A stretch of 41,652 bases of DNA from Bryobacterales bacterium (GTDB lineage: Bacteria; Acidobacteriota; Terriglobia; Bryobacterales; Bryobacteraceae). The notes below the pieces were generated by a model, which was not told the origin of the DNA, made no database searches, and saw only the letters and a program-made list of their open reading frames with translations. The position numbers were made by a program, and so were the translations under genes. Positions 38-26,757 of the stretch are shown here, one piece after another (position 1 is the stretch's first letter; each line of letters opens with the position of its first letter). Location of the stretch: assembly GCA_947467185.1 (NCBI GenBank), contig CANIHR010000011.1:1-41652 (forward strand), written 5' to 3'.

Positions 38-3000
38 GAAGAGCTTGTGCGCCGGCGGCATTGCCCGCCTGGAGCAGTTTAAAGGCTGCTTCCGGGGGCA
101 CCGGCACAGAGAACAGGTTGCCCTGCGCTTTGCCGAAGCCAGCCTGACGGAGGATCTCGAACTGGGCCTCGGTTTCCACCCCTTCGGCGATCACCTGGAG
201 GTTGAGGGTGCGGGCGAGCTTCACCATGCCTTCCACCAGAGGCAGGCTGCTGGGCACGTCGTCGAGGTCGCGGACAAAGACCTGGTCGATTTTCACGATA
301 TCGACGGGCAACTGGTGGAGGTACTGCATGGGCGAATAACCGGTGCCGAAGTCATCGAGGGCTATCAGAATACCGCGGTTGCGAAGCCGGTTGAGCACGC
401 TGGCGGAGTTGCCGGTGTCCTTGACCAGGGCGGTCTCCGTCAGTTCCAGTTCGAGGCGCGTCGGGTCCAGGCCCGTTTCTTCGAGAACCTCGATTACGAA
501 CTGTTCAAAGCCACTGTGGGCGAGTTGCATGACCGAGACGTTCACGGAAATGCAGGCTTGCGGGAAGCCGGCCTTGTGCCATACCTGCATTTGGCGGCAG
601 GCTTCGCGGAGGACCCACGCGCCCATTTCCACGATGAGGCCGCTCTCTTCGGCAATGGGAATGAATTCGCCGGGCGGGAGTTCGCGCTCCGCGCCCTCGA
701 TGCGCAGCAGCGCTTCGAAACCCGTGATCTGGCCCGTGATGGCGTACTGCGGCTGGTAGCGAAGCCGGAAACCATTGTTGCGAAGGGCTTCGCGGAGCTT
801 GTCCTCGATGTTCTGCGGCCGGGAAGCAGCCTCCATCATGCCGGACCTGAAGAGTTGTACCTGATTCTTACCGGCAGCCTTCGCGTTGTACATGGCGGCG
901 TCGGCAGCGGCCATCAGGCTGTCGGGCTGCAGGGCGTCATCCGGGTAGGTGGCGATGCCGATACTCATGGTGGCGAAGACGTTCTTGTCTTCAATCCGGA
1001 TGGGAGCCTGCAGCGTGTTGAGCAGCGCCTGGCCTCGCGCCGCCGCCCCTTCGCGCGAACGCAGCCCCGGAAGCAGGACGATGAATTCGTCGCCGCCGAT
1101 GCGGCCAATCATTTCGCCGGGCCGGAGGCCGGAAGACAATCTCTCAGAGATCTGGCGCAGGAAGTTGTCGCCCACCTGATGGCCCCAGGTGTCGTTAATC
1201 CGCTTGAAGCGGTCGAGATCGATGAACAGGACAGCGACGCGCGAGTTTTCAGTGCCTGCGATACGGAGTTCCCGATTCAGGCGCTCACCGAAGAGGAGCC
1301 GGTTGGGGAGGCCTGTCAGCACGTCGTGTCGGTACTGGTGCGCCAGTTCACGAGTGCGCTCGGCGACGGCGGTTTCCAGAGCGCGGCGGATCTCGGCCTG
1401 ACGTTTGGTTCGCTGACGCACTAACAGGAAGACCATGATGGCGGCTCCGAGGATGCTGCCGAGCGTAAACCACCATGTCCGCCACCAGGGCGGCGTGATG
1501 CGGAAACGCAGCGTGGCCACTTCACCGAGTTTCGCCCCCTTATTCTCCCGCGAGGCAATTTCGAGCGTGTATTCGCCCGGTTGGATGGCCGCGATCTGCA
1601 ACTGCCGTTCGGAAGTCTCCCGCCACTGTTTATCGAGGGGCGTGAGGCGGTAGGTGAAGGTGACGTCGCGGTCGTGGCCGAAGCGCAGCGCGGAGAAGCG
1701 GACTTCGAAGGGGTCCGACGTGTATTTCAGATCGTGCGGGCGAGCCAGATCGAGGACCGTTTTTCCGTAAACAGCACTGGTGAAGACGGTGCGGGGCGGG
1801 TCCGCCTGCGCGATACCGGCCCGTCGCTTGAAGCGGGAAAGGCCTCCGGAGGTGCCGATCCACACATGCCCGTCTGCCTCGGCGGCGAAGGCGTGGAGAT
1901 CGCAGTCATCCCAGATGAGACCGTCACGGTGATCGTAGCGGTCCCAGCGGGTGCTGTTCGGCGCGCGGACCAGGACGCCGAGATTGGTGCCCGCCCAAAG
2001 GTTGCCTTTGGGGTCGAATTCGAGGAAATAGGTGATGTTCGCCTGGCGGCCCTGGGGCGGGTCGAAGGTCTCGAAGGTCGGTTTCCCGTTGCTGAAGGTT
2101 AGGCGGGAAATGACACCTGTCAGGCGGTAGCCGATCCAGATCTCGCCGTTCATGCCCGCCGCGAGGGCGATTACGGAGTTGCCCTTCAGCCCGTCGTTCA
2201 TGCTGAAACGCTTCCAGACACCGCCGGAAAGGTGCCAGAGGCCGTCGCCGGTGCCCGCCCAGATGTCGCCGTTGGGGGCCTCCAGCAGCGTCCAGCATCG
2301 GAGCTTTGTGGCTGTTTCCACGCGTTCAAACTTCGCAGCTCCCTTCGCCAGCGTGAAGATACCTTTTTCGGTGCCGGCCCAGACGGTCTGGTTGCGGTCA
2401 ATGATGATCGTGTAGGGGGAACGCCCGCCCAGGCCTTCATTCGCGGCGTACCATTTGACGGCTCCGGTTTTGGGGTCAAACCGGCCGGCACCTTTGCCGT
2501 CTGTTCCGAGCCAAATATACCCGGAGTCGTCCCGGCGCACCGCGTGGACCGGAATGGAATTCAGGGCTTTCTGTTGCGTCCATTCCCAGGCGTGGCCATT
2601 TTCGGTCTGGATGCCCCGGAAGAAACCGCTCTCGGTACCAACCCAGACATCGCCTTTGCCTCCGGGGAGAATTTCGTAAACGGTTTCGCTGGTGAGGCCG
2701 CTTTGAGCGGAGAAGCTCTCCCACTCGCTGTAGCCGAGCCACCGCGCCAGCCCGCGCCCGGCCAGCCCGAGCCACACGGAGCCTTCCCGGTCCTGGAGTA
2801 CGGAGAAGACGGGGGGGAGGATGCCGGCCATTCTGCCGGCGATGCGGAATTTGCCGTCCTGCCAAATTGCCAGGCCTTCGGTTGTGGGGGCGAGGAGACG
2901 ACCGTCCTGATCGAGCACGGGACTGCGCCCGGGGCCGGCGGGCGGGAGTTTCGGGTCCCCTTCGGCGAAGCGTCCGGAGCCGGCCGGCATGAGGAAAAGC

Positions 3001-3686
3001 CGCCGGTTTTGCAGAACCCAGAGGCCGCCGTCTTTATCACGGACGATGGAGCCGATTCGGTCCTTCAGGAGACCTTCACCGGGACCGAAGACCTTAATGC
3101 CATCCGGGCCCATGCGGCAAAGTTCGGTGCCACAGCCCCACGCCAGTGTCTGGCCATCCACGAAGATGCTCTGGGCATCGGTGCGGCCTTCGCCGGGAGC
3201 TTTGGGGCCGGCAGCGAAGCTCAGCGTGCCGTTGGGGCCGGAAGTCGCTTCCAGGAGCCCGGCGTCGGTGGCAATCCAGGTTCGCTTATCGGCCAGAACG
3301 ACGCCGTTGTAGCCGTTGACGCGATTGCCAAAGGGCAGCGTGAGCTTTTCGAAACGCTCACCACGCAGCCGGAAAAGGCCTGACTGGTTGCCGACGAGGA
3401 CTGTGCCGTCCGGGGCCTCGCCAATGGAGGCGCTGATACTGGAAGGCAGCCCCTGTTCGGGCGAAAATTCACGAAACCGGATGCCCTCATAGCGAAAAAG
3501 GCCGTTTTCAGTGACAACCCAGATGAAACCGGTGCGGTCCTGATAGAGGGTTTTTACGGTGAGGTTGCTGAGGCCCTGTTCGACTCCAAAGTATTGAAAA
3601 GCATACTGCTGCGCTTTCGCGGGAAGGGCCGCAAAGGAGAGAGATAAAAGGATCGGAAGCGCGGCAGCTCGTCGAAAAGAAGACAC
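27..3686 (-). CDS. two-component-regulator propeller GGDEF-EAL transmembrane sensor
   Basis: Probable periplasmic-sensing protein that makes and/or degrades cyclic di-GMP. Seen: signal peptide, many propeller repeats of the Reg_prop type (motifs such as DRTGFIWVVTENGLFRY and GDIWAGTGDGLWHLSGG), a Y_Y_Y-type domain (TYRLTPLDKQW), a membrane segment near residue 745, then a GGDEF domain (signature GGDEF about residues 864-868) and an EAL domain (EALLR at about 991, then ELTET, DDFGTGYS, KID, AEGVET, QG). The catalytic residues of both output domains look intact. The inhibitory-site position before GGDEF reads RPGE rather than RxxD. Start: a longer frame begins with TTG at 3707, but GTG at 3686 is preceded by GAGG six bases upstream and gives a tidy signal peptide; it is preferred (1219 aa). 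Divergent from ftsY across 115 bp. Whether net activity is synthesis or hydrolysis cannot be told. Confidence 0.9.
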   Translation of the reverse strand: MSSFRRAAALPILLSLSFAALPAKAQQYAFQYFGVEQGLSNLTVKTLYQDRTGFIWVVTENGLFRYEGIRFREFSPEQGLPSSISASIGEAPDGTVLVGNQSGLFRLRGERFEKLTLPFGNRVNGYNGVVLADKRTWIATDAGLLEATSGPNGTLSFAAGPKAPGEGRTDAQSIFVDGQTLAWGCGTELCRMGPDGIKVFGPGEGLLKDRIGSIVRDKDGGLWVLQNRRLFLMPAGSGRFAEGDPKLPPAGPGRSPVLDQDGRLLAPTTEGLAIWQDGKFRIAGRMAGILPPVFSVLQDREGSVWLGLAGRGLARWLGYSEWESFSAQSGLTSETVYEILPGGKGDVWVGTESGFFRGIQTENGHAWEWTQQKALNSIPVHAVRRDDSGYIWLGTDGKGAGRFDPKTGAVKWYAANEGLGGRSPYTIIIDRNQTVWAGTEKGIFTLAKGAAKFERVETATKLRCWTLLEAPNGDIWAGTGDGLWHLSGGVWKRFSMNDGLKGNSVIALAAGMNGEIWIGYRLTGVISRLTFSNGKPTFETFDPPQGRQANITYFLEFDPKGNLWAGTNLGVLVRAPNSTRWDRYDHRDGLIWDDCDLHAFAAEADGHVWIGTSGGLSRFKRRAGIAQADPPRTVFTSAVYGKTVLDLARPHDLKYTSDPFEVRFSALRFGHDRDVTFTYRLTPLDKQWRETSERQLQIAAIQPGEYTLEIASRENKGAKLGEVATLRFRITPPWWRTWWFTLGSILGAAIMVFLLVRQRTKRQAEIRRALETAVAERTRELAHQYRHDVLTGLPNRLLFGERLNRELRIAGTENSRVAVLFIDLDRFKRINDTWGHQVGDNFLRQISERLSSGLRPGEMIGRIGGDEFIVLLPGLRSREGAAARGQALLNTLQAPIRIEDKNVFATMSIGIATYPDDALQPDSLMAAADAAMYNAKAAGKNQVQLFRSGMMEAASRPQNIEDKLREALRNNGFRLRYQPQYAITGQITGFEALLRIEGAERELPPGEFIPIAEESGLIVEMGAWVLREACRQMQVWHKAGFPQACISVNVSVMQLAHSGFEQFVIEVLEETGLDPTRLELELTETALVKDTGNSASVLNRLRNRGILIALDDFGTGYSPMQYLHQLPVDIVKIDQVFVRDLDDVPSSLPLVEGMVKLARTLNLQVIAEGVETEAQFEILRQAGFGKAQGNLFSVPVPPEAAFKLLQAGNAAGAQALQLG

Positions 3687-12996: not shown

Positions 12997-15810
12997 ATGC
13001 AAAAACAATCCAGGCTTCGTTATTTTTCAGTCATAATTGCCCTCGCAGTAATCGTTTCCGGTGTTGTGGTGCGGCGGGCGTCGGCCGAAGGTGATGCGAT
13101 GCCGCTTCATGTGGATCGCGGCGCGGGCGGAATGGCGCGAATTCTGCGCGAGATTCGCACCCGAGCCAGTCTGGCACTGGTGGTGGCGCACCCGGATGAC
13201 GAGGACGGCGGCATGCTCGTCTGGGAGTCACGCGGCGTTGGTGCCCGCACGATTCAGCTGACGCTGAATCGCGGTGAGGGCGGACAGAACGAAATGTCCT
13301 CTGATACCTACGACGCGATGGGCCTGGTCCGGACGCAGGAACTGCTGCAGGCGGGCCGCTACTACGGCGTGGAACAGTTTTTTACCCGCGCCATCGACTA
13401 CGGGTTTTCGAAGACTCGTGAAGAGGCGCTCGACAAGTGGAATCACGATCGTGTACTGGCCGATGTGGTCCGCGTGATTCGCATGACCCGGCCGCTGGTG
13501 ATCACGTCGGTGTTTATTGGCAATCCGACCGATGGCCACGGCAACCACCAGGTGGCGGGCCAGTTGGCGCAGGAAGCGTTCGTGATGGCGGGCGATGCGA
13601 CGAAGTTCCCGGAACAGTTGCAGGAAGGACTGCGGCCGTGGTCGCCGATGAAGATGTATGGCCGGACCCCGTTCGCCGACATCACCAAAGACGGCATGTA
13701 CGATTACGCCATCGACAAGTACGTGCCGGTGCGCTTCTTTGACTACGTGGAACAGAAATGGGTGACCGAGAAGCCGACGCCGACGCTGACGATTGACGAA
13801 GCGAAGATGATTCCGGGCACGGGCCTGACGGCGACGCAGATTGCGCGCGAAGGGTGGGGGTTGCAGAAGTCGCAGAACGGTGGCGGGACGCTGCCGCAGC
13901 CAGCTCCGGCGTCGGCCAGCTATCACCGCTATGGTTCGAGGGTGAAGTCGGGCGACCAGGAACAGACGTTTTTTGATGGCATGGACGTGACGCTGAACGG
14001 TATCGCGACTCTGGCAACGGGCGACACGCAGTTTCTGAAGACGGGCCTGGCGGCGATCACCGCGAAGGCCGATCAGGCATTTGCGCAGTACTCTCCGGAA
14101 AAGCCTGCCGCGCTTGCGCCGCTGCTGGCGGATGGCCTGAAAGGCACGCGGGATCTGATCGCGCAGGTGAAGACCAGCAAGCTGGCGGAGCCGGGCAAGA
14201 GCGATGTTCTTTTCGAACTGGGTGTGAAGGAAAAGCAGTTCCAGAAGGGGCTGGTCGCGTCGCTGGAATTGTCACTGAATACGGCCGTTTCGTCGCAATT
14301 GGGCGTGCCGGCGCCGAATGCCGGCGGACGTGGCCGCGGGATGGGGATGATTCGCGGTGGTTCGGTGTTCACGATGGCGATTCCCGGCCAGGCGTTTGCG
14401 ATTGAAGCGACTTCGTTCAACATGGGTTCGGAAGGCGTGAAGCTGGACGACGTGACGGTGATTCCGTCGGATGGGAAGAACTGGAGCGTTACGCCGCAGG
14501 GCACCCCGTCGCATGACCTGACCCCGGCGAAGCAGGAGATGTGGCGCATGACCGTGAAGGTTCCGGTGGACGCCGCTATCACCCGCCCGTATTACAAGCG
14601 TGATTCCACGGAGCAGCCTTACTACGATTTGATTGATGCGCGGTACCGGAATCTTTCCACCGTGCCGTATCCTCTCACCGCCCGCGCGAAGCTGACGTAT
14701 CGCGGCGTGCCGTTTGAGATGGAGCAGGTGGTACAGGCGAGTGAGCGTGTGGCCGGAATTGGTCAGGTGCAGATGCCGCTGATGGTGGCTCCGGCGATTT
14801 CGGTGAGCCTCGGGCTGCCGGGCGGTGCACTGCCTCTGACGGCGAAGTCGCTGTCTTTAACGGCTACGGTGCACAGCAACGTGAAGGGTCCGGCTCAGGG
14901 CGTGTTGCGCCTGACGATGCCCGCAGGTTGGAAGTCGGAACCGGCGGAAGCGCCGTTCATCATGGCGCGGGACGGCGAAGATCGTGTGATTTCGTTCAAC
15001 GTGATTCCGGCTGGCGTGCAGGCGCAGCCGTACAGCATTTCAGCGGTGGCGGAGTACAACGGCCAGAAGTACTCGGAAGGCTACCGGATGGCCGGGTATC
15101 CTGGCGTTCGCAACTATCCGTTCTACTCGGCTGCCACGTACCGTGCAATGGGCGTGGATGTGAAGACCGTGTCGGGGCTGCGGCTTGGCTACCTGCCGGG
15201 GACGGGCGACGATGTCCCGAAGGCGATTGAGAATCTGGGCCATGAAGTTCGCGTGCTGGCCACGACGGATCTGACGCAGGGTGATCTGTCGGGTTATGAC
15301 GCTATCGTGCTGGGTGTTCGCGCTTACGCGGTGCGGGCGGATCTGAAGTCGGCGAATGGCCGACTGCTGGATTACGTGAAGAACGGTGGCGTGCTGATTG
15401 TGCAGTACAACCTGCAGGACTTTGACCACAACTACGGGCCGTATCCGTTTGAACTGGGTTCAAATCCGCAGAAGGTGGTGGATGAGGCCAACGCCGTGAC
15501 ATTCCTGGAACCGAATCATCCCCTGTTTGCCTGGCCAAATAAGATCGGGATTGACGATTTTAAGGGCTGGGAAGAAGAGCGCGGTCACGGCTTCATGAAG
15601 ACCTGGGATAAACAGTACACGGCTCTGGTGGAAACGCATGATCCGGAGCAGGATGCGCAGAAGGGTGGCTTGCTCATCGCGCGGTACGGCAAGGGTTTCT
15701 ACGTCTATGATGCGTTCGCGATCCATCGTCAGTTACCTGCGGGCGTGACGGGGGCGTTCCGTCTGCTGGGCAACCTGATCAGCCTGAAGAAGAACCCGGC
15801 TTACAACTAA
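12997..15810 (+). CDS. large secreted PIG-L family deacetylase with C-terminal Rossmann-like (ThuA/glutamine-amidotransferase-like) domain
   Basis: Predicted zinc-dependent N-deacetylase acting on an unknown N-acetylated sugar or glycolipid outside the cytoplasm. Seen: hydrophobic N-terminal signal/anchor (residues 10-25), a PIG-L/LmbE domain with the metal site AHPDDE (residues 64-69) and HGNHQ (His181, His184), a middle linker, a beta-sandwich of the NEW3 type (SLTATVHSNVKGPAQGVLRL), and a C-terminal alpha/beta domain (LGYLPGTGDDVPKAIENLGH, GYDAIVLGVRAYAV, VKNGGVLIVQYN). At 937 aa it is three to four times longer than single-domain LmbE enzymes. The frame is open from 12919, but ATG 12997 directly precedes the signal sequence; no strong ribosome site is seen. 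Followed 37 bases later by the P-type ATPase. Confidence 0.85.
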   Translation: MQKQSRLRYFSVIIALAVIVSGVVVRRASAEGDAMPLHVDRGAGGMARILREIRTRASLALVVAHPDDEDGGMLVWESRGVGARTIQLTLNRGEGGQNEMSSDTYDAMGLVRTQELLQAGRYYGVEQFFTRAIDYGFSKTREEALDKWNHDRVLADVVRVIRMTRPLVITSVFIGNPTDGHGNHQVAGQLAQEAFVMAGDATKFPEQLQEGLRPWSPMKMYGRTPFADITKDGMYDYAIDKYVPVRFFDYVEQKWVTEKPTPTLTIDEAKMIPGTGLTATQIAREGWGLQKSQNGGGTLPQPAPASASYHRYGSRVKSGDQEQTFFDGMDVTLNGIATLATGDTQFLKTGLAAITAKADQAFAQYSPEKPAALAPLLADGLKGTRDLIAQVKTSKLAEPGKSDVLFELGVKEKQFQKGLVASLELSLNTAVSSQLGVPAPNAGGRGRGMGMIRGGSVFTMAIPGQAFAIEATSFNMGSEGVKLDDVTVIPSDGKNWSVTPQGTPSHDLTPAKQEMWRMTVKVPVDAAITRPYYKRDSTEQPYYDLIDARYRNLSTVPYPLTARAKLTYRGVPFEMEQVVQASERVAGIGQVQMPLMVAPAISVSLGLPGGALPLTAKSLSLTATVHSNVKGPAQGVLRLTMPAGWKSEPAEAPFIMARDGEDRVISFNVIPAGVQAQPYSISAVAEYNGQKYSEGYRMAGYPGVRNYPFYSAATYRAMGVDVKTVSGLRLGYLPGTGDDVPKAIENLGHEVRVLATTDLTQGDLSGYDAIVLGVRAYAVRADLKSANGRLLDYVKNGGVLIVQYNLQDFDHNYGPYPFELGSNPQKVVDEANAVTFLEPNHPLFAWPNKIGIDDFKGWEEERGHGFMKTWDKQYTALVETHDPEQDAQKGGLLIARYGKGFYVYDAFAIHRQLPAGVTGAFRLLGNLISLKKNPAYN

Positions 15811-15817
15811 ATCACAT

Positions 15818-15842
15818 TGGCATACAACCTGCTTGTATGCCA
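15818..15842. promoter_or_regulatory. perfect 10-bp inverted repeat at the P-type ATPase start
   Basis: tggcatacaa (15818-15827) and ttgtatgcca (15833-15842) are exact reverse complements around a 5-base loop cctgc. The element lies 7 bases after the PIG-L stop and ends 5 bases before the ATPase ATG at 15848; the only purine-rich sequence before that ATG (AGGG, 15842-15845) touches the stem. No T run follows, so it is not a typical intrinsic terminator. It could be a repressor operator or an mRNA hairpin that hinders ribosome access. Confidence 0.6.
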
Positions 15843-15847
15843 GGGTA

Positions 15848-18589
15848 ATGCAGGCATTTCAACCTTACGAAGCTTCCATTACGGAAGTGGCAGCGGCTCT
15901 GGGAACTGATCTGACGGTCGGTCTGAGCGGCTCTGTGGCTGCCGAGCGGCTGACCGAGTTCGGTCCCAACGAACTGGAGACGGAAGCGCGGGTCTCCGCG
16001 TGGCGGCGCTTTGTGGCTCAGTTCTCCGATGCCCTGGTGATTCTGCTGATCGTAGCGGCGTTCGTCTCCGCCCTGGTCTGGTTGCTGGAGCGGGAATCGT
16101 TCCTGCCGTACGAAGCGATTGTGATCATTGCGGTGGTGGTCCTGAACGCCCTGATGGGGTTCATTCAGGAGGGTCGCGCCGAGGAGGCGCTGGCGGCTCT
16201 GCGGGCGACTGCTGTCCCCTGGGCCACAGTAATTCGTGATGGGACACAGCAGCGAATTCCGGCTCGCGACCTGGTACCGGGCGACCTCCTCATCATCAGC
16301 GAAGGGGACTCGATTTCGGCGGACGCGCGGCTCACCGAAGTGGTGGAACTGCAGACCACGGAAGCCTCGCTGACAGGCGAAAGCCTGCCCGTCCTGAAGA
16401 CGAAGGAGCCGATTTCCGGCACTCCTGCGATCGCCGAGCGCTTCAATACTGTATTTTCCGGTACAGCTGTCGCGTTCGGCCATGCCGCCGGCATCGTGAC
16501 TCAGACCGGCATGAAAACGGAACTCGGTGCGATTGCCGGGTTGTTGCGGAACACGAAGTCGCAGGCGACCCCGCTCCAGCGCGATCTGGACCGCATTGGG
16601 CGGCAGCTGGGCTACGTCGTGATTGTGATTGCCGTCATCGTGGTGGCGACGCTGGCGATCCTGCATGGTGTTCGCGATCTGGCGGGCTTCGTGCAGATTC
16701 TGATGTTCGGCGTGGCTCTGGCCGTGGCGGCGGCCCCGGAGAGTCTGGCGACCGTGGTGACGACGGTACTGGCGCTCGGCGTACAGAAGATGGCAGGTTG
16801 CGGCGCGATTGTGCGCAAGCTCTCGGCGGTGGAATCGCTGGGCAGTGTCACCGTGATCGCCTCGGATAAGACCGGCACGCTGACGAAGAACGAGATGACG
16901 GTCCGCGTGATTCTGACGGCCAGCGGATCGGTGGTGCCGGAGGGAAATCCGGGCCAGAAGAACGAGCCCTGGAAGAACGAAACGGACCGTCTGCTGCGTG
17001 CCGCGTCGCTCGCGAACAATGCGGCCATTGGCAGCGATGGTGTGGTCCAGGGAGACCCGACCGAAGGGGCGTTGCTGATCGCGGCGGCGACGGCGGGGAT
17101 TGACCATGCGGCACTGCGGATACGGTATCCGCGTCTGGCCGAAGCGCCGTTTTCGTCGGACCGGAAACGGATGAGTACGGTGAACCGTGCGCCTGCCTCG
17201 CCGGAGGACTGCTATGTGTTTACCAAAGGTGCGGCCGGGGCCCTGCTGGACCTGTGCACGCACGAACTGGTGGGGCATGACCACGTTCTGCTGACTCACG
17301 AGCGGCGGACCGCCATTCTACAGGCCAATGAAACGCTGGCTTCTACCGCGTTACGAACTCTGGGTGTGGCGTTCCGAAAGATGGCGGCAGCGCCGGAAGG
17401 AGCGTCGGTCAGCCCGGGGGAACTGGAGCGAGATCTGGTATTTCTGGGGCTGATCGGGATGCTGGATCCTGCCCGTCCGGAAGCTGCGCCCGCGGTAGCG
17501 AAAGCACGGAGTGCCGGGATTCGGCCCGTGCTGATTACCGGGGATCATCCGGCTACCGCGGCGGCGATCGCTCGGGAGACGGGTATTTCGGTTGAAGGTC
17601 GCGTGATTGCGGGGCCGGAGCTGGAGGCGATGTCGGATGCGCAACTGGATGTGGCGGTTCGGGAAGTCTCCGTGTTTGCCCGGGTGACGCCGAGCCATAA
17701 GTTGCGCATCGTCGCGGCGCTACAACGTGGAGGGGCGATTGTGGCGATGACGGGCGACGGTGTGAATGACGCCCCCGCACTGAAGGCCGCCGATATCGGG
17801 ATTGCGATGGGGATTACCGGGACCGACGTGGCGAAGGAAGCGTCGGATCTGGTGCTCACCGATGACAACTTTGCCACCATCGTGGTGGCCGTGGAAGAGG
17901 GGCGCGCGGTATTTGACAACATCCGCAAAACGATCCTCTATTTGCTGTCTTCGAATGCCGGCGAAGTGCTGACGGTGTTCTTTGCCGTGTTGCTGGCAAG
18001 GCCTCTTGGCCTCGATTCGGGGAATGGTTTCACTTTGCCGTTACTGGCGACACAGATCTTGTGGATCAACCTGATTACCGATGGCGCACCCGCTCTGGCA
18101 CTGGGCTTTGATCCTCCGGCGCCGGACCTGATGCGGCGTGCGCCGCGAGCACGGACAGAAGGTGTGATTAACCGGCCGATGTTCGCGGGGATTCTTCTGG
18201 TGGGCGTTGTGATGACGGTGGGGACGCTGGCGGTCTTCCACCATGCGCTGCCCGGTGGCATCCCCTATGCACGCACCATGGCGTTCAATGCTCTGGTGTT
18301 CTACCAGTTGTTTAACGCCTTCAATTCGCGTGCCGGCATGCGCAGTGCGCTGCCGGGGCTGGGTGCCAACTGGCGGCTGTCCGCAGCTGTGGCGCTGTCC
18401 ATCGCACTGCATGCGCTGGTGATCTATGTGCCGATGTTGCAGGTTGCGTTCGGCACGGTAAGTTTGGGGGCCGCCGACTGGGTCCTGACGGTAGTTGTGG
18501 CCAGCAGCGTGTTGTGGCTGGCCGAAGTCGCGAAGTGGGCCGTGCGGAATAGCTACGTGCCAGGCTTTTCGGCCACCCTCAAGATCTGA
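15848..18589 (+). CDS. calcium-type (P2) cation-transporting P-type ATPase
   Basis: ATP-driven cation pump, most like the SERCA/PMCA group. 913 aa. Seen: N-terminal cation-ATPase domain (SITEVAAALGTDL), actuator loop with TGES (about residues 176-179), M4 motif PESLATVVT, phosphorylation site SDKTGTLTKNEM with Asp340, nucleotide domain KGAAGALLDLC, hinge MTGDGVNDAPALKAADIGIA, M6 NLITDGAPALALGF and four C-terminal membrane helices. The ion-site sequence PESL in M4 differs from PEGLP of SERCA, so calcium specificity is inferred only. Start: an in-frame TTG at 15833 falls inside the hairpin; ATG 15848 is preferred. The gene ends in a 37-base convergent overlap with the AI-2E transporter gene. 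Confidence 0.92.
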   Translation: MQAFQPYEASITEVAAALGTDLTVGLSGSVAAERLTEFGPNELETEARVSAWRRFVAQFSDALVILLIVAAFVSALVWLLERESFLPYEAIVIIAVVVLNALMGFIQEGRAEEALAALRATAVPWATVIRDGTQQRIPARDLVPGDLLIISEGDSISADARLTEVVELQTTEASLTGESLPVLKTKEPISGTPAIAERFNTVFSGTAVAFGHAAGIVTQTGMKTELGAIAGLLRNTKSQATPLQRDLDRIGRQLGYVVIVIAVIVVATLAILHGVRDLAGFVQILMFGVALAVAAAPESLATVVTTVLALGVQKMAGCGAIVRKLSAVESLGSVTVIASDKTGTLTKNEMTVRVILTASGSVVPEGNPGQKNEPWKNETDRLLRAASLANNAAIGSDGVVQGDPTEGALLIAAATAGIDHAALRIRYPRLAEAPFSSDRKRMSTVNRAPASPEDCYVFTKGAAGALLDLCTHELVGHDHVLLTHERRTAILQANETLASTALRTLGVAFRKMAAAPEGASVSPGELERDLVFLGLIGMLDPARPEAAPAVAKARSAGIRPVLITGDHPATAAAIARETGISVEGRVIAGPELEAMSDAQLDVAVREVSVFARVTPSHKLRIVAALQRGGAIVAMTGDGVNDAPALKAADIGIAMGITGTDVAKEASDLVLTDDNFATIVVAVEEGRAVFDNIRKTILYLLSSNAGEVLTVFFAVLLARPLGLDSGNGFTLPLLATQILWINLITDGAPALALGFDPPAPDLMRRAPRARTEGVINRPMFAGILLVGVVMTVGTLAVFHHALPGGIPYARTMAFNALVFYQLFNAFNSRAGMRSALPGLGANWRLSAAVALSIALHALVIYVPMLQVAFGTVSLGAADWVLTVVVASSVLWLAEVAKWAVRNSYVPGFSATLKI

Positions 18590-19608
18590 ATTTCCTTCAC
18601 CAGTGCCCCCGCAAGAGAGACGACCAGCGGGCCGACGAGGATACCTAATACGCCGAACGCCCAGGTGCCTCCGATGGCTCCCAGCGCCATCACCAGGGGG
18701 GGCTGTTTGGCCCGCACACCCATCACGAGTGGCCGCAGTACGTTATCGACCGAGCCGACCACAAACGCGCCCCAGAGGGCGAGGAACAGAACCTTCCACC
18801 ACGCCCCGGCAATCGCATAGGCGATCACTACCGGGACCCAGACGAGGGGCGCGCCCAGAACAGGGATGATGGAGCAGACGCCACCGATGGTGCCCCACAG
18901 GGCGGGCGAACGAACTCCGGCCATCCAGAAGCCCAGCGCGACGAATAAGCCCTGGCCGAGCGCAACGGCGATGACTCCGTAGACGGTTGCCGTGACGGAA
19001 TCTTCCACGGTCTGAAAAAGGCTATCGATGACGTGTTTTTCCAGCGGCACAATATCGCTGAGGGTTGCCAGCCACTGTTTGCCGTGCAGGAGAAGAAAGT
19101 AGAGGAAGACAGTGGTGAAGAGGATGCCCAATACCGCTGTTGTGACGCCTCCAACGGCAGTGCCGACGCTGCCGGCCATCCGCCCCGCCACGTTTTGCAG
19201 ACCATTCATGAAGCTGTCGCGGATCGCATCTTTATCGAGGGGGATGCGCGTGGCGAGCACGTCCACAAGCCGGTCTGTTGTACTGGCGACCATGGCGGGC
19301 CAGCCGCCTTCCTGGAGCGACCGGCGGCTTAGTGCGTTGTAGCTGCTTTGCAACTCAGAGCTGATGGTGAAGCCGACGAAAACCAGCAACCCGGCGAGGA
19401 CCAGCATGATGCTGAAGGTAGTCAGGCTGGTGGAGAGCGTGGGGCGTTTCAGGTGCCGGGTCAGCCATTGATTCGCGGGGTGGAGGACGATGGCGAGAAC
19501 GCCGGCGAGGAGGGCGGGTGTGAGGAAGGGCCGTGAAATCTGAAACAACGCCGGCACCAGCAGGGCGAGGAGGAATCCGAGAACGACGAGGGGTCGTTTG
19601 TTCAACAT
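18553..19608 (-). CDS. AI-2E family transporter
   Basis: Polytopic inner-membrane protein of the AI-2 exporter (PerM/TqsA) superfamily, thought to export small signalling molecules or exchange ions. 351 aa with N-terminal helices (PLVVLGFLLALLVPALF; PALLAGVLAIVLHP), a periplasmic/coil section (residues about 75-150) and a C-terminal set of helices including GTIGGVCSIIPVLGAPLVWV and GTWAFGVLGILVGPLVVSL, all characteristic of the family. ATG at 19608 has a strong GGAGG eight bases upstream. It follows the decarboxylase gene by 27 bases on the same strand, so it is probably the export component of that operon (inference). Overlaps the ATPase gene tail-to-tail. Confidence 0.9.
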   Translation of the reverse strand: MLNKRPLVVLGFLLALLVPALFQISRPFLTPALLAGVLAIVLHPANQWLTRHLKRPTLSTSLTTFSIMLVLAGLLVFVGFTISSELQSSYNALSRRSLQEGGWPAMVASTTDRLVDVLATRIPLDKDAIRDSFMNGLQNVAGRMAGSVGTAVGGVTTAVLGILFTTVFLYFLLLHGKQWLATLSDIVPLEKHVIDSLFQTVEDSVTATVYGVIAVALGQGLFVALGFWMAGVRSPALWGTIGGVCSIIPVLGAPLVWVPVVIAYAIAGAWWKVLFLALWGAFVVGSVDNVLRPLVMGVRAKQPPLVMALGAIGGTWAFGVLGILVGPLVVSLAGALVKEIQILRVAEKPGT

Positions 19609-19635
19609 TCGTCGTGCCTCCGCACCTTGAGTCTA

Positions 19636-21054
19636 CTAGAGTGTGGCAGCGAGAACACGCAGGAGCCGGAATGTTTCTTCCACACTCTGCCTGGTGACGG
19701 AGCGGCTGGCGATGCAGGCCCGCAGAACGCGGCGTCCGTTCAGTTGCGTGCCTGAGATCAGGCCGCGGCCATCGCGCATCAGGGCGAGTTCCAGATCGTA
19801 GTTGAGCTGGTCCAGGGTGACGGGGTCGGTCACGCCTGGAGGTACGTAACGGAAGCAGCAGATGCTGAGCTCTGGTTCGCAGGCGAGTTCGAACTCCGGG
19901 GCCTCTTTGATCAGCGACGCGAGGTGATGGGTGAAGTCGAGATGGTCCGCTACCATCGCCGCATAGGCTGCGACTCCGTACTGGCGCAACGCCAGCCAGA
20001 CCTTGAGCGCACGGTCTGTTCGGCTGAGTTCGAAGCCGTACTCGTACTGGTTGTGCTCGGTGCCCATGGCTGCCTGGAGGTAGTGCGGAATCAGGCTGAA
20101 GGTGAGGCGGAGATCGGCCCAGTCGCGGAAGAGAATGCAGCCAGCTTCAAAGGGAGTGTTGAGCCACTTGTGAGGGTCAACGGTGAGGGAATCGGCGCGG
20201 GCGATCCCGGTCATCAGCGCACGTTTTTCGGGAACGAGCGCCGCGAAGGCTCCGTACGCTCCATCCACGTGGAACCAGAGGTTGTTGCGTTGCGCGATAT
20301 CGGCCAAGGCGTTCAGCGGGTCGATGGCTCCGGTCTCCACGGTACCGGCGTTACCGACGACGCAGAAAGGCTTGTGGCCAGCGGTAACGTCAGCCTGGAT
20401 GGCCTGTTCGAGGAGGTCTGTTCGGAGGCGGAAGTGTTTGTCGAGGGGGATTTTGCGCAGCCAGTTCGCGCCGATGCCGAGCATCTCGCAGGATCGCTGG
20501 ATGCAGGAGTGGGTGTGCTCAGAGGTATAGGCGACCAGTTGCGGTTTGCCGTTCAGGCCTTCGGCGCGAACATCCCATCCGGCCTTTCGGACACGGGCTA
20601 CTGAGAGTGCGGCGAGATTGGCCCACGAGCCGCCAGTGGTGACGTAACCGGCGGCGTCGGGTGCGAAGCCCGCCATCTCGCCCAGCCAGCGGACGACGGT
20701 GGTCTCGATGTGGCAACTGGCTGGCTGATTCTTCCACGTGGTCGGGCGCAGCTTGATGGCTGCCACCAGGGCTTCAAAGAGCGCGGGCAGCGGGGAGGAC
20801 GACGTGAGGACGTAGCCCATCGAACCCGGGTGATTGGGATTGCCCGCGGCTGGCAGAATCCGGTCGAGGGCGAGTTGCAGGAGCGCATCCGGCTCCATGC
20901 CCTCCAGGGGCAAAGGCCCGCCAAAGGCCGCTTCCATCGCGTCGCGGGTCTGCGGGGCAGGGAAGACGGGGCGGGGATTTGCGCCGTGGAACTCTTCGAC
21001 GATCTGATCGACAATACGGTAGCCGAGGTCGCGGAGGGTGTCGGGCCTGGTCAT
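19636..21054 (-). CDS. pyridoxal-phosphate-dependent aromatic-L-amino-acid decarboxylase family protein
   Basis: Group II decarboxylase expected to convert an amino acid, probably aromatic, to its amine. 472 aa. Seen: HPGSMGYVLTSSSP (about residues 75-88), TTGGSWANLAAL cofactor-binding segment (139-150), the ring-stacking histidine in SEHTHS (His182), DGAYG with the pyridine-nitrogen Asp264, and DPHKWLN with Schiff-base Lys296. These match the AADC/tyrosine/tryptophan decarboxylase family; the exact substrate cannot be read. Start ATG overlaps the upstream GNAT-cNMP stop in an ATGA (21051-21054), which implies translational coupling. The transporter gene follows after 27 bases. Confidence 0.92.
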   Translation of the reverse strand: MTRPDTLRDLGYRIVDQIVEEFHGANPRPVFPAPQTRDAMEAAFGGPLPLEGMEPDALLQLALDRILPAAGNPNHPGSMGYVLTSSSPLPALFEALVAAIKLRPTTWKNQPASCHIETTVVRWLGEMAGFAPDAAGYVTTGGSWANLAALSVARVRKAGWDVRAEGLNGKPQLVAYTSEHTHSCIQRSCEMLGIGANWLRKIPLDKHFRLRTDLLEQAIQADVTAGHKPFCVVGNAGTVETGAIDPLNALADIAQRNNLWFHVDGAYGAFAALVPEKRALMTGIARADSLTVDPHKWLNTPFEAGCILFRDWADLRLTFSLIPHYLQAAMGTEHNQYEYGFELSRTDRALKVWLALRQYGVAAYAAMVADHLDFTHHLASLIKEAPEFELACEPELSICCFRYVPPGVTDPVTLDQLNYDLELALMRDGRGLISGTQLNGRRVLRACIASRSVTRQSVEETFRLLRVLAATL

Positions 21055-22157
21055 CGGCCTGCCGGGTTAATCAGTCGCAGCGCGAGGGATTTCGAGAGGT
21101 TGAGGAGGAACTTCGCGGCGAGGGCGGCGTTGCCATCCAGCAGACGCTGCAGTGTGCGTTCATCAAGGACCAGGAGGCGGACCCGCTCGCCTTTGGCGTA
21201 GACGTCTGCAGTACGTTTGGTGGCCAGCAGCAGAGCGAATTCGCCGAACAGTTCGCCTTCGCCGATTTGTGCGAGGAGCTTCCCTTCGAGGCGGACTTCG
21301 GCAAGGCCCTCCAGGACCACGTACGCGGAGCGTGTGCCGTGACCTTTGACGACGATTTGCTGGCCATCAATGCAGTCGAGTACCTGGCCGCGGTCGAGGA
21401 AGGCCTTGATTTCCTCTTCGGTGAAGCCTTCAAAGGCTCCGGTGCGCTCGCGCGCCTGGCTGAGCAGGCCGACCGTTTCGGCCCAGGAGGCGCGTTCCAG
21501 GTCCGTGGTGGTGAGCACCGGTGATTGCTCGGGCAGCAGGGCGACGAGGCGTGCCGCTTCGGCCGGATCGTCGATACCCTTCGCGTAGCGGATCATCGGC
21601 GACCGGATGTTTCGCAGATGCGCGACATCGGGGGCGACGTAGACGAGCGGCACCATGACGCCGAAGCCTGGCTGCTCAAAAACGGGCGCGTAGGGCCGGA
21701 AGCCGATGCCCTGGTAGAGGTTCAGCAGATGCGGCTGGCAGTCGCAGAAAATCAGCTTCATACCGGTCGAAAACTGGAATTTCGCGGCTTCCACCATCAG
21801 CTTAAAGGGCAGTTGGGAACTGCGGTACTCCGGGCGCACGAGGAAGCGAATGTTGATCGCCATTTTCGAACGGGGAACAACAGGAAGAAAGCGCGAAATG
21901 TCAAAGCCGTGTTCAAAATGTTCGGGGAAGGGCTGTTCGTCGTTGCCCACCAGAATGCCGATCGTGCCGGCCATCTCGCCATCCACCTGGCCGTGAAAGA
22001 CGTGCGCGGCCTCGATGGCGGCGTCCCGCAGCAGGCCTTTTTCGTGATCGGCATCTTCCCGCATTGTGCCCATTTCGCCACAGAATATTTCGTAGGCGAG
22101 CCGGTAACACTCTTCACGTTGTTGTTCGTTCGCGAGCGAAATTACGATTTCTGCCAT
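21051..22157 (-). CDS. GNAT-type acyltransferase fused to a C-terminal cyclic-nucleotide-binding domain
   Basis: Predicted acyltransferase whose activity may be controlled by cAMP or cGMP. Residues 1 to about 190 look like an acyltransferase of the GNAT/N-acyl amino acid synthase (FeeM-like) fold: LAYEIFCGEMGTM, acidic stretch REDADHEKG, AGTIGILVG, INIRFLVRPEYRSSQL, and LNLYQGIGFRPY near the C-terminal part. Residues from about 243 to 365 form a CRP-like domain with an intact phosphate cassette GELFGEFALLLATKRTADV (Glu306 and Arg315 in the ligand-contact positions). No DNA-binding helix-turn-helix follows. First gene of the operon with the decarboxylase and AI-2E transporter. Acyl donor and acceptor are unknown; FeeM similarity is by motif impression only. 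Divergent from the PSD1 gene (66 bp). Confidence 0.8.
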   Translation of the reverse strand: MAEIVISLANEQQREECYRLAYEIFCGEMGTMREDADHEKGLLRDAAIEAAHVFHGQVDGEMAGTIGILVGNDEQPFPEHFEHGFDISRFLPVVPRSKMAINIRFLVRPEYRSSQLPFKLMVEAAKFQFSTGMKLIFCDCQPHLLNLYQGIGFRPYAPVFEQPGFGVMVPLVYVAPDVAHLRNIRSPMIRYAKGIDDPAEAARLVALLPEQSPVLTTTDLERASWAETVGLLSQARERTGAFEGFTEEEIKAFLDRGQVLDCIDGQQIVVKGHGTRSAYVVLEGLAEVRLEGKLLAQIGEGELFGEFALLLATKRTADVYAKGERVRLLVLDERTLQRLLDGNAALAAKFLLNLSKSLALRLINPAGR

Positions 22158-22223
22158 GCCCTGTCAGGATACAAAAAGCGGCGCTGCGGCACGGGCGTCA
22201 TAATGACTGCTAAGGTGCACCCT

Positions 22224-25200
22224 ATGTCCGTAGCCCGTTTCCTGTTTGCGGCCGTTGCTCTGTCGGCAACTCTCGCTGCTGCCCCGGTGTCGTTTAATCG
22301 CGATATCCGGCCCATCATGTCGGATACCTGCCTCCGCTGCCACGGGCCGGATAAGAGTTCGCGCATGGCGAATTTGCGGCTGGACTTGCGGGAAGAAGCG
22401 ACGAAGGCGCTGCGCAATGGGCGGACTCCGATTGTGCCGGGTGACCCGGACCACAGCGAAATCATCACGCGCATTTTTGCAACCGGAGCGCGCATTATGC
22501 CTCCGGAGTTCGCGCATAAGACCTTGACGGACGCGCAGAAGCAGACGCTGAAGCGATGGGTGGCGGAAGGCGCGGTTTATGAAGGTCACTGGGCGTATCA
22601 GCCGGTAAGGCGGCCGGAGCCTCCGGTATTGGCGGGGAATCCGGTGGATGCTTTTATTGAGGCTCGTCTGGCACGCGAAGGTCTGAAGTTTTCGGCCGAG
22701 GCGGACCGGCGGACTTTGCTGCGGAGGGCGTCGTTTGACCTGACAGGGCTGCCGCCGACTCCGGCTGAAGTTACGGCGTTTCAGAACGACAAGTCGCCCG
22801 ATGCCTGGGTGAAAGTTGTGGATCGTTTGATGGCCTCCTCACACTATGCCGAGAAGCAGGCGATGCACTGGCTGGATGCCGTTCGCTATGCCGATTCGGC
22901 GGGGTTCCACGGCGATAATCTGTGGCCCGCATGGCCGTATCGCGACTACGTTTTGAAGGCCTTCCGGGATAACAAACCGTTTGATCAATTTACGCGCGAG
23001 CAACTCGCCGGGGATCTGATGCCGAATGCGACGGTGGAGCAGAAAATTGCTTCGGCGTACAACCGGATGAATCGCTATTCGGCGGAGGGCGGACTACAGC
23101 CGAAGGAGTATCTCGCGAAGTACGGCGCAGACCGGGTGAGAACTCTCTCGGCGGTGTGGCTTGGCTCCACGATGGGCTGCGCGGAGTGTCACGATCACAA
23201 GTTCGATCCGTTTGCATCGAAGGATTTCTACTCGATGAAGGCGTTCTTTGCGGATATCAAAGAGACGGGGTTGATGCCGGATCGTGGTGCGGATGCGTGG
23301 GGTTCGAAGCTGCTGCTGGCTACGCCGGAACAGCAGCGTCAACTGGACGCGTTGACGGCGAAGGCGGATGCTGCCCGGCGCGAACTGGATGAGAAGGCGA
23401 AGGCCCTGCTGGCGAAGGCACCGAACTATGTGGGGACGGCAGATCGTTCGTGGCACTGGCAGAAGCCTGTGTCTGCGCGCGCCGCCGCTGGTTCGGTACT
23501 GAAGATTTATAACGACGAGATGGTGGAGAGCTCGATCAATGGCTTTGAACGCAAGCGTGGCGACGGCCTGATTGTGGCTTCGGGGCCGATTCCGAGCAAC
23601 GACACTTACACGGTGGAATTACGTCCCGGAGCGGGGAAGTGGACGGCACTGGGCTTAGATCTGCACAGCGACGAAGTCCTGCCGGGCAATGGCCTGGCAC
23701 GCGGTGCGGATCGCTTTGTTCTGACGGAAGTGGATGCGGAGATGAACGGGCGGAAATTGCCGTTTGTGCTGGCGACCGCTAACAAGACCGATGTCCATGT
23801 TGATGCACCAGCGATGGCCGCCATCGACGGTGATCCGTCGACGGGTTGGTCCGAAGGGCACATGCTGGGGCTGCGTTTTGGCAGCACAGTGACGACGGCC
23901 GCTGACTCGGTTATTACGGTTCGTCTGCATCAGGATTCGCCGATTCGACGTGCGGTGATTGGCCGGTTCCGGGTGGCATTGTCGAACGCTGAATATTCAT
24001 GGCCGTATCTGGGCGATTCGGGGAAGCAATCGAAGGCGCGTACAGACGAGAATCAGGCTGTACTCAATGTGGATGTGGAGCATGGCGTTCCCTTCGACGT
24101 GACGGAGGGCTTCAAAGCCGAGCCCGACAAGCGAACCGAGAGACAGCAAAAAGCGATTCTCGATTTCTTCGAATTCACCACGCCCGAACTGCAGCCGTTG
24201 CTGATCGCGGCGGAACAGACCGCCTGGGAGCGGACGCGCTTCTTCTGGTCGATTCCGCGTGTGGTGACGACGGAGACGACCGAACCCGCGATCACGCGCA
24301 TTCTGCCGCGCGCCGACTGGATGAATGAGACGACGGAGATTGTGCAGCCTGCTGTACCTGCGTTCCTCGGTAAGGTGGAAACTGGCGGGCGTCGCGCCAC
24401 GCGTCTGGATCTGGCGAACTGGCTGGTCTCAGCACAGAATCCGCTGACGGCGCGCGCGTATGCCAACCGCACCTGGCGCGAATTCTTCGGTATGGGGATT
24501 ACGAAGTCGCTGGATGATTTGGGGTCGCAGGGGGAAGCGCCGGTGCATCCGGAACTGTTGGACTGGCTGGCTTCGGAGTTCGTACAGCCCAGCTACGATG
24601 CCGCTGGTGCGCACGCCTGGGATATGAAGCATCTGGTTCGGACCATCGTGCTCAGCAAGGCTTATCGGCAGACGTCGATGAGTACGCCGGCGCTCGATGA
24701 GAAGGATCCTGACAATCGCCTGATTGCCCGGCAGAGCCGTTTTCGCGTGGATGCCGAGGTGGTTCACGATACGGCGCTGCAGGTGTCGGGGTTGCTGGTG
24801 GACCAGTTCGGCGGGCCGCCGGTGAAGCCGGTTGCTCCTGCCGGCTATCTGTTCGCGATGAACTTTCCGAAGCGCGATTATTCCGAGAGTCGCGGTGCGG
24901 ATCTGTATCGTCGTGGTGTTTACACCGAATGGCAGCGGACATTCCTGCATCCGGCGTTGCTGAACTTCGATGCGCCGACGCGCGAGGAGTGCGCGGTGAA
25001 TCGCACGAACTCAAATACGCCACTGCAGGCGCTGGATCTGCTGAACGATCCCATCTTTGTGGAGGCGTCCCGTGTGTTTGCGCAGCGGGCGCTGGCGGCG
25101 AATCCGAAGAACCCGATTGACGAGGCGTTCCGTCTGGCGGAAGACCGTTTGCCGACCGCACAGGAACGCCGGATTCTGCTCGGCCTGCATGCGGAAAGTC

Positions 25201-25355
25201 TGAAGCAGTTCCGGGCCGATCCAAAGGCCGCGGAAGCGCTGCTTTCAGTGGGGGAGGCCCCGCGTCCCAAGGCTGTTGCGGCAGCCGACCTGGCCGCGCT
25301 GACGGCTGTTACGCGCGCCATCCTGAATCTGCACGAAACGATCACGAGGAACTAG
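22224..25355 (+). CDS. PSD1-family cytochrome-like protein (PSCyt1, DUF1549, DUF1553)
   Basis: Secreted protein of the planctomycete-type cytochrome family, 1043 aa, common in Planctomycetes, Verrucomicrobia and Acidobacteria. Seen: signal peptide (residues 1-20), PSCyt1 domain with haem motif CLRCH (36-40), the DUF1549 domain (WLDAVRYADSAGFHGDN, PFDQFTREQLAGDLMPN) with a second CxxCH in CAECHDHKFDP (Cys319-His323), a middle carbohydrate-binding-like beta region, and a C-terminal DUF1553 domain (VSAQNPLTARAYANRTW, NRTNSNTPLQALDLLNDP). ATG 22224 has AAGG eight bases upstream; ATG 22203 and a longer open frame from 21525 antisense to the GNAT gene are not favoured. The DUF1501 gene follows by two bases. 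Biochemical role is not established; links to polysaccharide breakdown are inference. Confidence 0.9.
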   Translation: MSVARFLFAAVALSATLAAAPVSFNRDIRPIMSDTCLRCHGPDKSSRMANLRLDLREEATKALRNGRTPIVPGDPDHSEIITRIFATGARIMPPEFAHKTLTDAQKQTLKRWVAEGAVYEGHWAYQPVRRPEPPVLAGNPVDAFIEARLAREGLKFSAEADRRTLLRRASFDLTGLPPTPAEVTAFQNDKSPDAWVKVVDRLMASSHYAEKQAMHWLDAVRYADSAGFHGDNLWPAWPYRDYVLKAFRDNKPFDQFTREQLAGDLMPNATVEQKIASAYNRMNRYSAEGGLQPKEYLAKYGADRVRTLSAVWLGSTMGCAECHDHKFDPFASKDFYSMKAFFADIKETGLMPDRGADAWGSKLLLATPEQQRQLDALTAKADAARRELDEKAKALLAKAPNYVGTADRSWHWQKPVSARAAAGSVLKIYNDEMVESSINGFERKRGDGLIVASGPIPSNDTYTVELRPGAGKWTALGLDLHSDEVLPGNGLARGADRFVLTEVDAEMNGRKLPFVLATANKTDVHVDAPAMAAIDGDPSTGWSEGHMLGLRFGSTVTTAADSVITVRLHQDSPIRRAVIGRFRVALSNAEYSWPYLGDSGKQSKARTDENQAVLNVDVEHGVPFDVTEGFKAEPDKRTERQQKAILDFFEFTTPELQPLLIAAEQTAWERTRFFWSIPRVVTTETTEPAITRILPRADWMNETTEIVQPAVPAFLGKVETGGRRATRLDLANWLVSAQNPLTARAYANRTWREFFGMGITKSLDDLGSQGEAPVHPELLDWLASEFVQPSYDAAGAHAWDMKHLVRTIVLSKAYRQTSMSTPALDEKDPDNRLIARQSRFRVDAEVVHDTALQVSGLLVDQFGGPPVKPVAPAGYLFAMNFPKRDYSESRGADLYRRGVYTEWQRTFLHPALLNFDAPTREECAVNRTNSNTPLQALDLLNDPIFVEASRVFAQRALAANPKNPIDEAFRLAEDRLPTAQERRILLGLHAESLKQFRADPKAAEALLSVGEAPRPKAVAAADLAALTAVTRAILNLHETITRN

Positions 25356-25357
25356 AA

Positions 25358-26757
<1,400 letters not shown>

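Follow-up and report, generated by a model that had tools for sequence, protein, structure and literature searches.

Three closely packed genes on the minus strand of the window, by which we mean the whole 41,652-nucleotide stretch analysed here (contig 11 of the 5.78 Mb, 496-contig genome of a Bryobacterales bacterium), raise the question of whether they form one biosynthetic unit and of what such a unit would make. They encode a FeeM-like acyltransferase fused to a cyclic-nucleotide-binding (cNMP; cyclic nucleoside monophosphate) domain (P0001), a pyridoxal phosphate (PLP)-dependent group II decarboxylase (P0002) and an AI-2E family transporter (P0003). A preliminary description had taken them for a cassette that makes and exports an N-acylated amine or related signal under cyclic AMP (cAMP) or cyclic GMP (cGMP) control. 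That lead stands with three corrections: the unit comprises two genes, the term 'aromatic' applied to the decarboxylase is unsupported, and cAMP control has a precedent. What the transferase–decarboxylase pair would then do is considered below.

The transferase–decarboxylase pair and its inheritance

Among 19 genomes of the genus, a full-length fused transferase is present in five (the window's own, G009, G014, G017 and G018). A close decarboxylase, 67–72% identical to that of the window, is found in four of the 19, the window's own included, each time directly behind the transferase, and in the remaining 15 genomes the best decarboxylase matches do not exceed 38%. The close decarboxylase is thus confined to transferase bearers (Fisher p = 0.0013 over the 19 genomes, kinship being ignored). 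The pair occupies three distinct gene neighbourhoods, in which gene names without a Pfam number reflect sequence impression: between the AI-2E gene and a PSD1-type gene in the window, ahead of a DUF3667 gene (PF12412) in G014 and G017, where the single transferase of G018 is placed likewise, and near ATP synthase and phosphoheptose isomerase-like genes in G009. The DNA of G007 (locus L110) is collinear with window positions 15000–19608 and 22182–25573, and the 2,573 bases of the window that hold the pair correspond there to 477 largely intergenic bases. Since the gene order is the same and homology breaks exactly around the pair, the two genes were either gained in the lineage of the window or lost in that of G007, as a unit. 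A short direct tandem repeat can be seen by eye at about 3780–3870 of L110, where the window carries the pair. Transfer from afar finds no support in base composition, the GC content of the two genes (60.8 and 63.9%) resembling that of the flanks (60.8–63.0%), and no relative of the transferase was found on plasmids at E ≤ 1e-5 among 72,556 records.

Other neighbours of the pair were considered as possible members and set aside. DUF3667, which follows the pair in L057 and L058, and in L059 the transferase, is background because matches to it occur in pair-less genomes and elsewhere in the genome of the window. PLP-synthase genes lie on the other side of the pair in G017 (pdxT is assigned by PF01174 in L057, pdxS and a regulator by sequence impression); a role in supplying cofactor to the decarboxylase was rejected, as G018 has pdxS in that place without a decarboxylase.

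The AI-2E gene is likewise neighbouring background, outside the functional module, because the relatives G007 and G015 keep its order without the pair and the pair-bearing relatives lack a close AI-2E gene. Close orthologues (54–69%) occur in G007, G015 and G016, and the pair is absent from all three; G007 has the order ATPase–AI-2E–PSD1 and in G015 the same flanking genes enclose a different stretch. In the four other genomes that bear the transferase, the best AI-2E homologue is 28, 29 or 32% identical, or there is none at E ≤ 1e-10, and at none of the four other transferase loci of the genus is an AI-2E gene linked to the transferase. In the window (15833–19608) a cation-ATPase-like gene and the AI-2E gene run towards each other and overlap at their 3′ ends, and G007 and G015 keep this order. 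The co-occurrence suggested in the preliminary description is therefore seen for two of its three families, transferase and decarboxylase, which stay together in four of the five transferase genomes. A three-gene cassette in which the AI-2E protein exports the product would fit the short gap with its good ribosome site and the lack of a terminator-like site between the genes in a sequence scan, but the AI-2E orthologues that adjoin the ATPase without the pair, the pair-bearing relatives without a close AI-2E gene and the break of homology around the pair contradict it, and we hold it to be very unlikely. In the window, the position of the pair upstream of the AI-2E gene may lead to all three genes being co-transcribed.

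The N-terminal domain of P0001 is predicted by profile and by fold to be FeeM- and acyl-homoserine lactone (AHL) synthase-like, as had been proposed. P0001 scores 24.3 bits against the FeeM profile PF21926, just under the cut-off of 27, which is passed by all ten family members scanned singly (L059 with 33.4 and L060 with 29.3 among them), and all nine members of the first alignment combine a PF21926 match at E ≤ 0.01 with a cNMP domain. An AlphaFold2 model of P0001 was built from nine sequences (predicted local distance difference test, pLDDT, 81.9; predicted template modelling score 0.57). The comparison with FeeM and LuxI-type synthases that the preliminary description had called for gave Z 16.4 for FeeM 2g0b (root-mean-square deviation 2.9 over 169 residues), 15.6 for TofI and 14.8 for LasI, values with which small GNATs tie. 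The modelled C-terminal part matches CRP/CLP at Z 16–17, and in a plain Foldseek search the best 50 rows were all cNMP-domain proteins. Tyr148 and Arg104 are invariant in the nine-row alignment. Residues 101–104 read I-N-I-R; likeness to the LuxI-type AHL synthases TofI, LasI and BjaI consists of fold and weak sequence similarity, whereas their E-x-S-R motif is lacking and P0001 has no match to the Autoind_synth profile. The cyclic-nucleotide domain claimed earlier is borne out: Glu306 and Arg315 of the phosphate-binding signature are kept in all 18 full-length members aligned, and the genome of the window has four class III cyclase matches over the cut-off.

For the decarboxylase, the enzyme class named in the preliminary description is confirmed and the aromatic substrate is not. 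PLP Lys296, catalytic His182, Asp264 and loop Tyr325 are all intact, so that P0002 agrees in fold, in the PLP lysine and in the catalytic His and the loop Tyr with group II enzymes such as the Ruminococcus gnavus tryptophan decarboxylase (TDC) and the diaminobutyrate, glutamate and DOPA decarboxylases. It differs from them in Arg103, which aligns with His120 of the R. gnavus TDC and is found in 3/3 orthologues counted and in 0/37 other homologues examined, 29 of which have Asn. Tyr81 retains an aromatic residue at the position of TDC Phe98; the loop that holds Arg103 (residues 81–109) is modelled at pLDDT below 50. His120 of the TDC is reported to stack on Trp and H120N to lower activity on Trp and Phe only slightly, and a separate screen found modest effects only of a His120 mutation (PMC9448781). 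Arg103 alone therefore does not exclude an aromatic substrate; the aligned residues are not decisive, and they do not support the aromatic assignment. Fold matches to the glutamate, tryptophan, lysine and DOPA types differ by no more than a few Z units, with the lysine decarboxylase DfoJ among the near-tied ones, and give no decision on substrate, and the best NCBIfam match, L-2,4-diaminobutyrate decarboxylase, reaches 207 of 900 bits, below the cut-off. Among the matches listed for 396 genomes of the phylum there is no decarboxylase above 43% identity, that of the window aside.

Two groups of the fused transferase family

Searches of the class of G298 (148 genomes) and of the class of G258 (93 genomes) added further full-length members of the family. 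In a sample of 399 genomes from the window's own class, full-length matches were confined to the genus of the window (four genomes); the large searches scored at most 4, 5 or 13 candidates per genome, and members may thus be missed. The tree and the column counts cover 18 of the 19 full-length members, L179 (G553, short contig, one in-frame TAG) being omitted. A supported branch (100/99) divides the 18 into nine and nine, the midpoint root serving for drawing only.

The column three residues before the conserved Arg, placed by aligning to E-x-S-R of the AHL synthases BjaI and TofI, holds Glu in all nine members of the other group, and Ile or Thr in all nine of the window's group. It very likely corresponds to Glu95 of FeeM and Glu103 of Nas354, by way of the BjaI/TofI alignment; Nas354 with Glu103 changed to Ala is described as inactive (PMC4897644). 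Column 143 is the sole one that is fixed in each group yet different, and 55 alignment columns have no letter common to both groups. By these aligned residues the transferase of the window is assigned to a Glu-less, His-bearing branch. The exchange of Glu for His holds in the nine plus nine fused proteins and fails as a strict rule in five cNMP-less relatives, which have neither Glu nor His143 (by alignment, and by eye for L227 and L228); hence it is not general and may have run in either direction.

An extra gene on the same strand adjoins eight of the nine members of the window's group, namely a decarboxylase in four, a Haem_oxygenas_2 protein in two (of one lineage) and a protein of about 298 amino acids in two, counts that are raw, stem from few and related genomes and have no baseline for chance same-strand neighbours. 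Such partners are not a clean mark of this group alone, since L176, L181 and L182 of the other group also have same-strand neighbours: in L176 a cNMP-patatin esterase gene begins 13 bases after the transferase (the one in L175 is on the opposite strand), and L181 and L182 have same-strand neighbours in common, one of which is semialdehyde dehydrogenase-like in L181. The rest of the other group shows no neighbour pattern by eye. The esterases of L175 (5053–7305) and L176 (8509–10731) are of the NTE type and have two cNMP-binding stretches.

The partner of about 298 amino acids is a conserved protein, 54% identical between L061 (1857–2753) and L180 (6490–7458), and lies directly before the fused transferase. 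It has no Pfam or NCBIfam match and nothing convincing in the PDB set; the idea that it is an adenylating enzyme came from a motif impression and was dropped, a profile comparison with an AMP-binding enzyme giving 3.9% probability. In L228 (G718, 849–3268) a fatty acid desaturase, a Glu-less FeeM-like protein without a cNMP domain and a Haem_oxygenas_2 protein stand in a row on one strand; this FeeM-like protein was found by profile and has no Pfam match of its own. Taken with L062 and L063, L228 hints that FeeM-like transferases and PF14518 iron enzymes are repeatedly associated. In L227 (G661, 1414–3130) a cNMP-less FeeM-like protein lies behind a fatty acid desaturase gene and overlaps it.

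Precedents and possible functions

The cAMP-control half of the combination is not new, because activation by cAMP has already been published for the N-acyl amino acid synthase NasP (Clardy & Brady 2007, J Bacteriol 189:6487, via PMC7293339, PMC4897644, PMC5643525 and PMC8433624), which acylates phenylalanine (PMC5643525). Compared by description, it resembles P0001 as an N-acyl synthase type under direct cyclic-nucleotide control and differs in that P0001 lacks the usual Glu. To our knowledge, NasP has no decarboxylase partner. FeeG and FeeM stand together in one fee cluster. FeeG of soil bacteria carries out the oxidative decarboxylation of N-acyl tyrosine (PMC8762209), so that there is also a precedent for a pathway that joins a FeeM-type synthase to a decarboxylase, although FeeG acts oxidatively on an acylated amino acid and the decarboxylase of the window is of the PLP group II type. 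The synthases Nas343 and Nas354 have a FeeM-like N-terminal domain followed by a C-terminal second-messenger domain, PilZ in their case (PMC4897644); P0001 differs in having a cNMP domain rather than one for cyclic di-GMP, in lacking the Glu and in its decarboxylase partner. The remark in the preliminary description that no system of this combination is known thus gives way to NasP as regards cAMP control. What is unusual is the Glu-less, His143-bearing group, eight of whose nine members have an extra gene beside them. Open-licence full-text literature, mostly without subscription journals, yielded no report of a cNMP-domain N-acyl synthase or acyltransferase, of an N-acyl amino acid synthase from Acidobacteria or of an N-acyltyramine decarboxylase–acyltransferase cluster, which is weak evidence of absence.

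The reading that we favour, with a confidence somewhat short of even, is that the pair is a cNMP-gated maker of an N-acyl amine or a related amino lipid. The decarboxylase would convert an amino acid, with no sign of a plain aromatic one, to an amine; the FeeM-like domain would move a fatty acyl group from acyl carrier protein or coenzyme A onto an amine that arises from, or is connected with, the decarboxylase step, and the C-terminal domain would bind cAMP or cGMP and thereby set transferase activity. The overlap and co-inheritance of the two genes, the FeeM-type profile and fold, the intact PLP and cNMP residues and the cyclase matches are in keeping with it, as are, from the literature, the cAMP activation of NasP, the PilZ-bearing N-acyl synthases and the use of acyl-CoA by the FeeM-like TyzA. 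Several points weigh on the other side. The transferase apparently lacks the Glu that N-acyl amino acid synthases have in the active site, as the Ile or Thr throughout its group indicates, and small GNATs fit the fold about equally (Z up to 16.8), over about 140 residues only. The transferase is rare, with matches at E ≤ 1e-35 in 5/396 genomes of the phylum, and G018 has it without the decarboxylase; there it overlaps the next gene by four bases, which leaves no room for a decarboxylase remnant. The one cluster known to us that combines a FeeM-type synthase with a decarboxylase, that of FeeG, decarboxylates after acylation, and product, acyl donor and cNMP binding are reached by inference rather than direct evidence. 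Should the favoured reading hold, the pair would offer a small system, open to experiment, in which lipid amide synthesis in Acidobacteriota is under the direct control of a second messenger, and N-acyl amines not yet known would probably be found through it. One acyltransferase scaffold would then have been combined with different substrate-making enzymes, and a branch independent of Glu would join a family whose described members use a catalytic glutamate.

Alternatively, the transferase might, like NasP, form an N-acyl amino acid, with the decarboxylase serving a separate or later step. FeeM, NasP and the FeeM-like TyzA, which acylates Tyr and Phe using acyl-CoA (PMC10404671), all act on amino acids, FeeG provides a decarboxylation after acylation, and the transferase stands alone in G018. 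The Glu of the known synthases is apparently missing, however, and the decarboxylase gene overlaps that of the transferase and is inherited with it. PLP decarboxylases require a free α-amino group, so that such an enzyme should not act once the α-amino group is acylated. On balance we regard this as unlikely, if the foremost of the alternatives. Doubtful, to a slightly greater degree, is the more far-reaching proposal of an undescribed class of cNMP-gated acyltransferases in which the catalytic Glu is absent, His143, with which the following helix begins, would act as base, and each lineage would supply its own substrate-making partner, a PLP decarboxylase here and a Haem_oxygenas_2 iron enzyme or the protein of about 298 amino acids elsewhere.

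The same replacement of Glu by Ile or Thr in 9/9 members, along with partner genes that differ between lineages, might instead point to a FeeM-like domain that is non-catalytic and serves as a cNMP-sensing regulator of the partner enzyme. Purifying selection, the invariant Tyr148 and Arg104 and the fixed His143 speak against it, and we hold such a role to be rather improbable. A little less probable still is acylation of a diamine or polyamine as in siderophore pathways of the DesA–DesC type, where the decarboxylase makes the diamine and the transferase acylates it in that order: the sub-cut-off diaminobutyrate decarboxylase match and the near-tied DfoJ would agree with it, but the transferase is FeeM-type and no monooxygenase or siderophore synthetase was noticed by eye in the neighbouring frames, for which no family-by-family scan was made. 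As for a cNMP-controlled protein lysine acetyltransferase like mycobacterial Pat, which has the same two types of domain, cNMP and GNAT, in one chain, the weak NCBIfam match to Pat (NF058543, 20.9 of 460 bits) covers the cNMP part only (residues 242–340), the N-terminal domain is of the FeeM/AHL-synthase subtype and the order of domains is the reverse of that in Pat; we give this explanation hardly any credence.

Gene layout and minor observations

The layout of three minus-strand genes given in the preliminary description, with its coordinates, overlap, gap and ribosome site, is confirmed (Table 1), and Pfam finds the cNMP domain (PF00027, cut-off 27.5 bits), the PLP decarboxylase family and the AI-2E family in them; in NCBIfam, all three proteins stay below every cut-off.

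Table 1. Features of the gene pair and its surroundings, in window coordinates
Feature	Position	Strand	Basis
FeeM-like acyltransferase + cyclic-nucleotide-binding fusion (P0001, 368 aa)	21051..22157	-	profiles, fold model
Acyltransferase domain, N-terminal, residues 1-185 (predicted)	21603..22157	-	fold matches FeeM 2g0b, TofI, LasI
Ile101 codon, at Glu column of AHL synthases and other family group	21855..21857	-	alignment
His143 codon; His 9/9 in window's group, Gly 9/9 in other group	21729..21731	-	alignment
Cyclic-nucleotide-binding domain, residues 239-368, with Glu306 and Arg315	21054..21443	-	PF00027 43.5 bits; CRP/CLP fold
ATGA stop/start overlap, transferase/decarboxylase	21051..21054	-	sequence; shared by L057 and L058, genes abut in L060
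PLP-dependent group II decarboxylase (P0002, 472 aa)	19636..21054	-	PF00282 235 bits; catalytic residues
Arg103 codon, substrate-side loop of decarboxylase; confined to this orthologue group	20746..20748	-	homologue alignment
Spacer, 27 bases, GGAGG ribosome site 19617-19621 ahead of AI-2E	19609..19635	-	sequence
AI-2E family transporter (P0003, 351 aa), background neighbour	18553..19608	-	PF01594 170 bits; relatives' gene order
Stretch with no equivalent in relative G007; site of the two-gene module	19609..22181	.	collinear L110 matches both sides

All three reading frames appear to be genes maintained by purifying selection. The ratio of nonsynonymous to synonymous substitution rates (dN/dS), a rough measure here as dS is mostly above 1, is 0.06–0.22 for the transferase (10 pairs; 0.11–0.20 for P0001 against four genus orthologues), 0.09–0.15 for the decarboxylase (6 pairs) and 0.16–0.20 for AI-2E (3 pairs). 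A promoter scan found 0 sites against 0.7 expected, and the GGAGG lies 8 bases upstream of the AI-2E ATG.

Two further surroundings of transferases from the other group may be recorded. In L173 (4667–6487) a TIR-domain protein is encoded on the opposite strand beside the transferase, and in L064 (9727–12976) the transferase lies near an asparagine synthase gene and an HprK-like P-loop gene, an arrangement reminiscent of a lasso peptide cluster.

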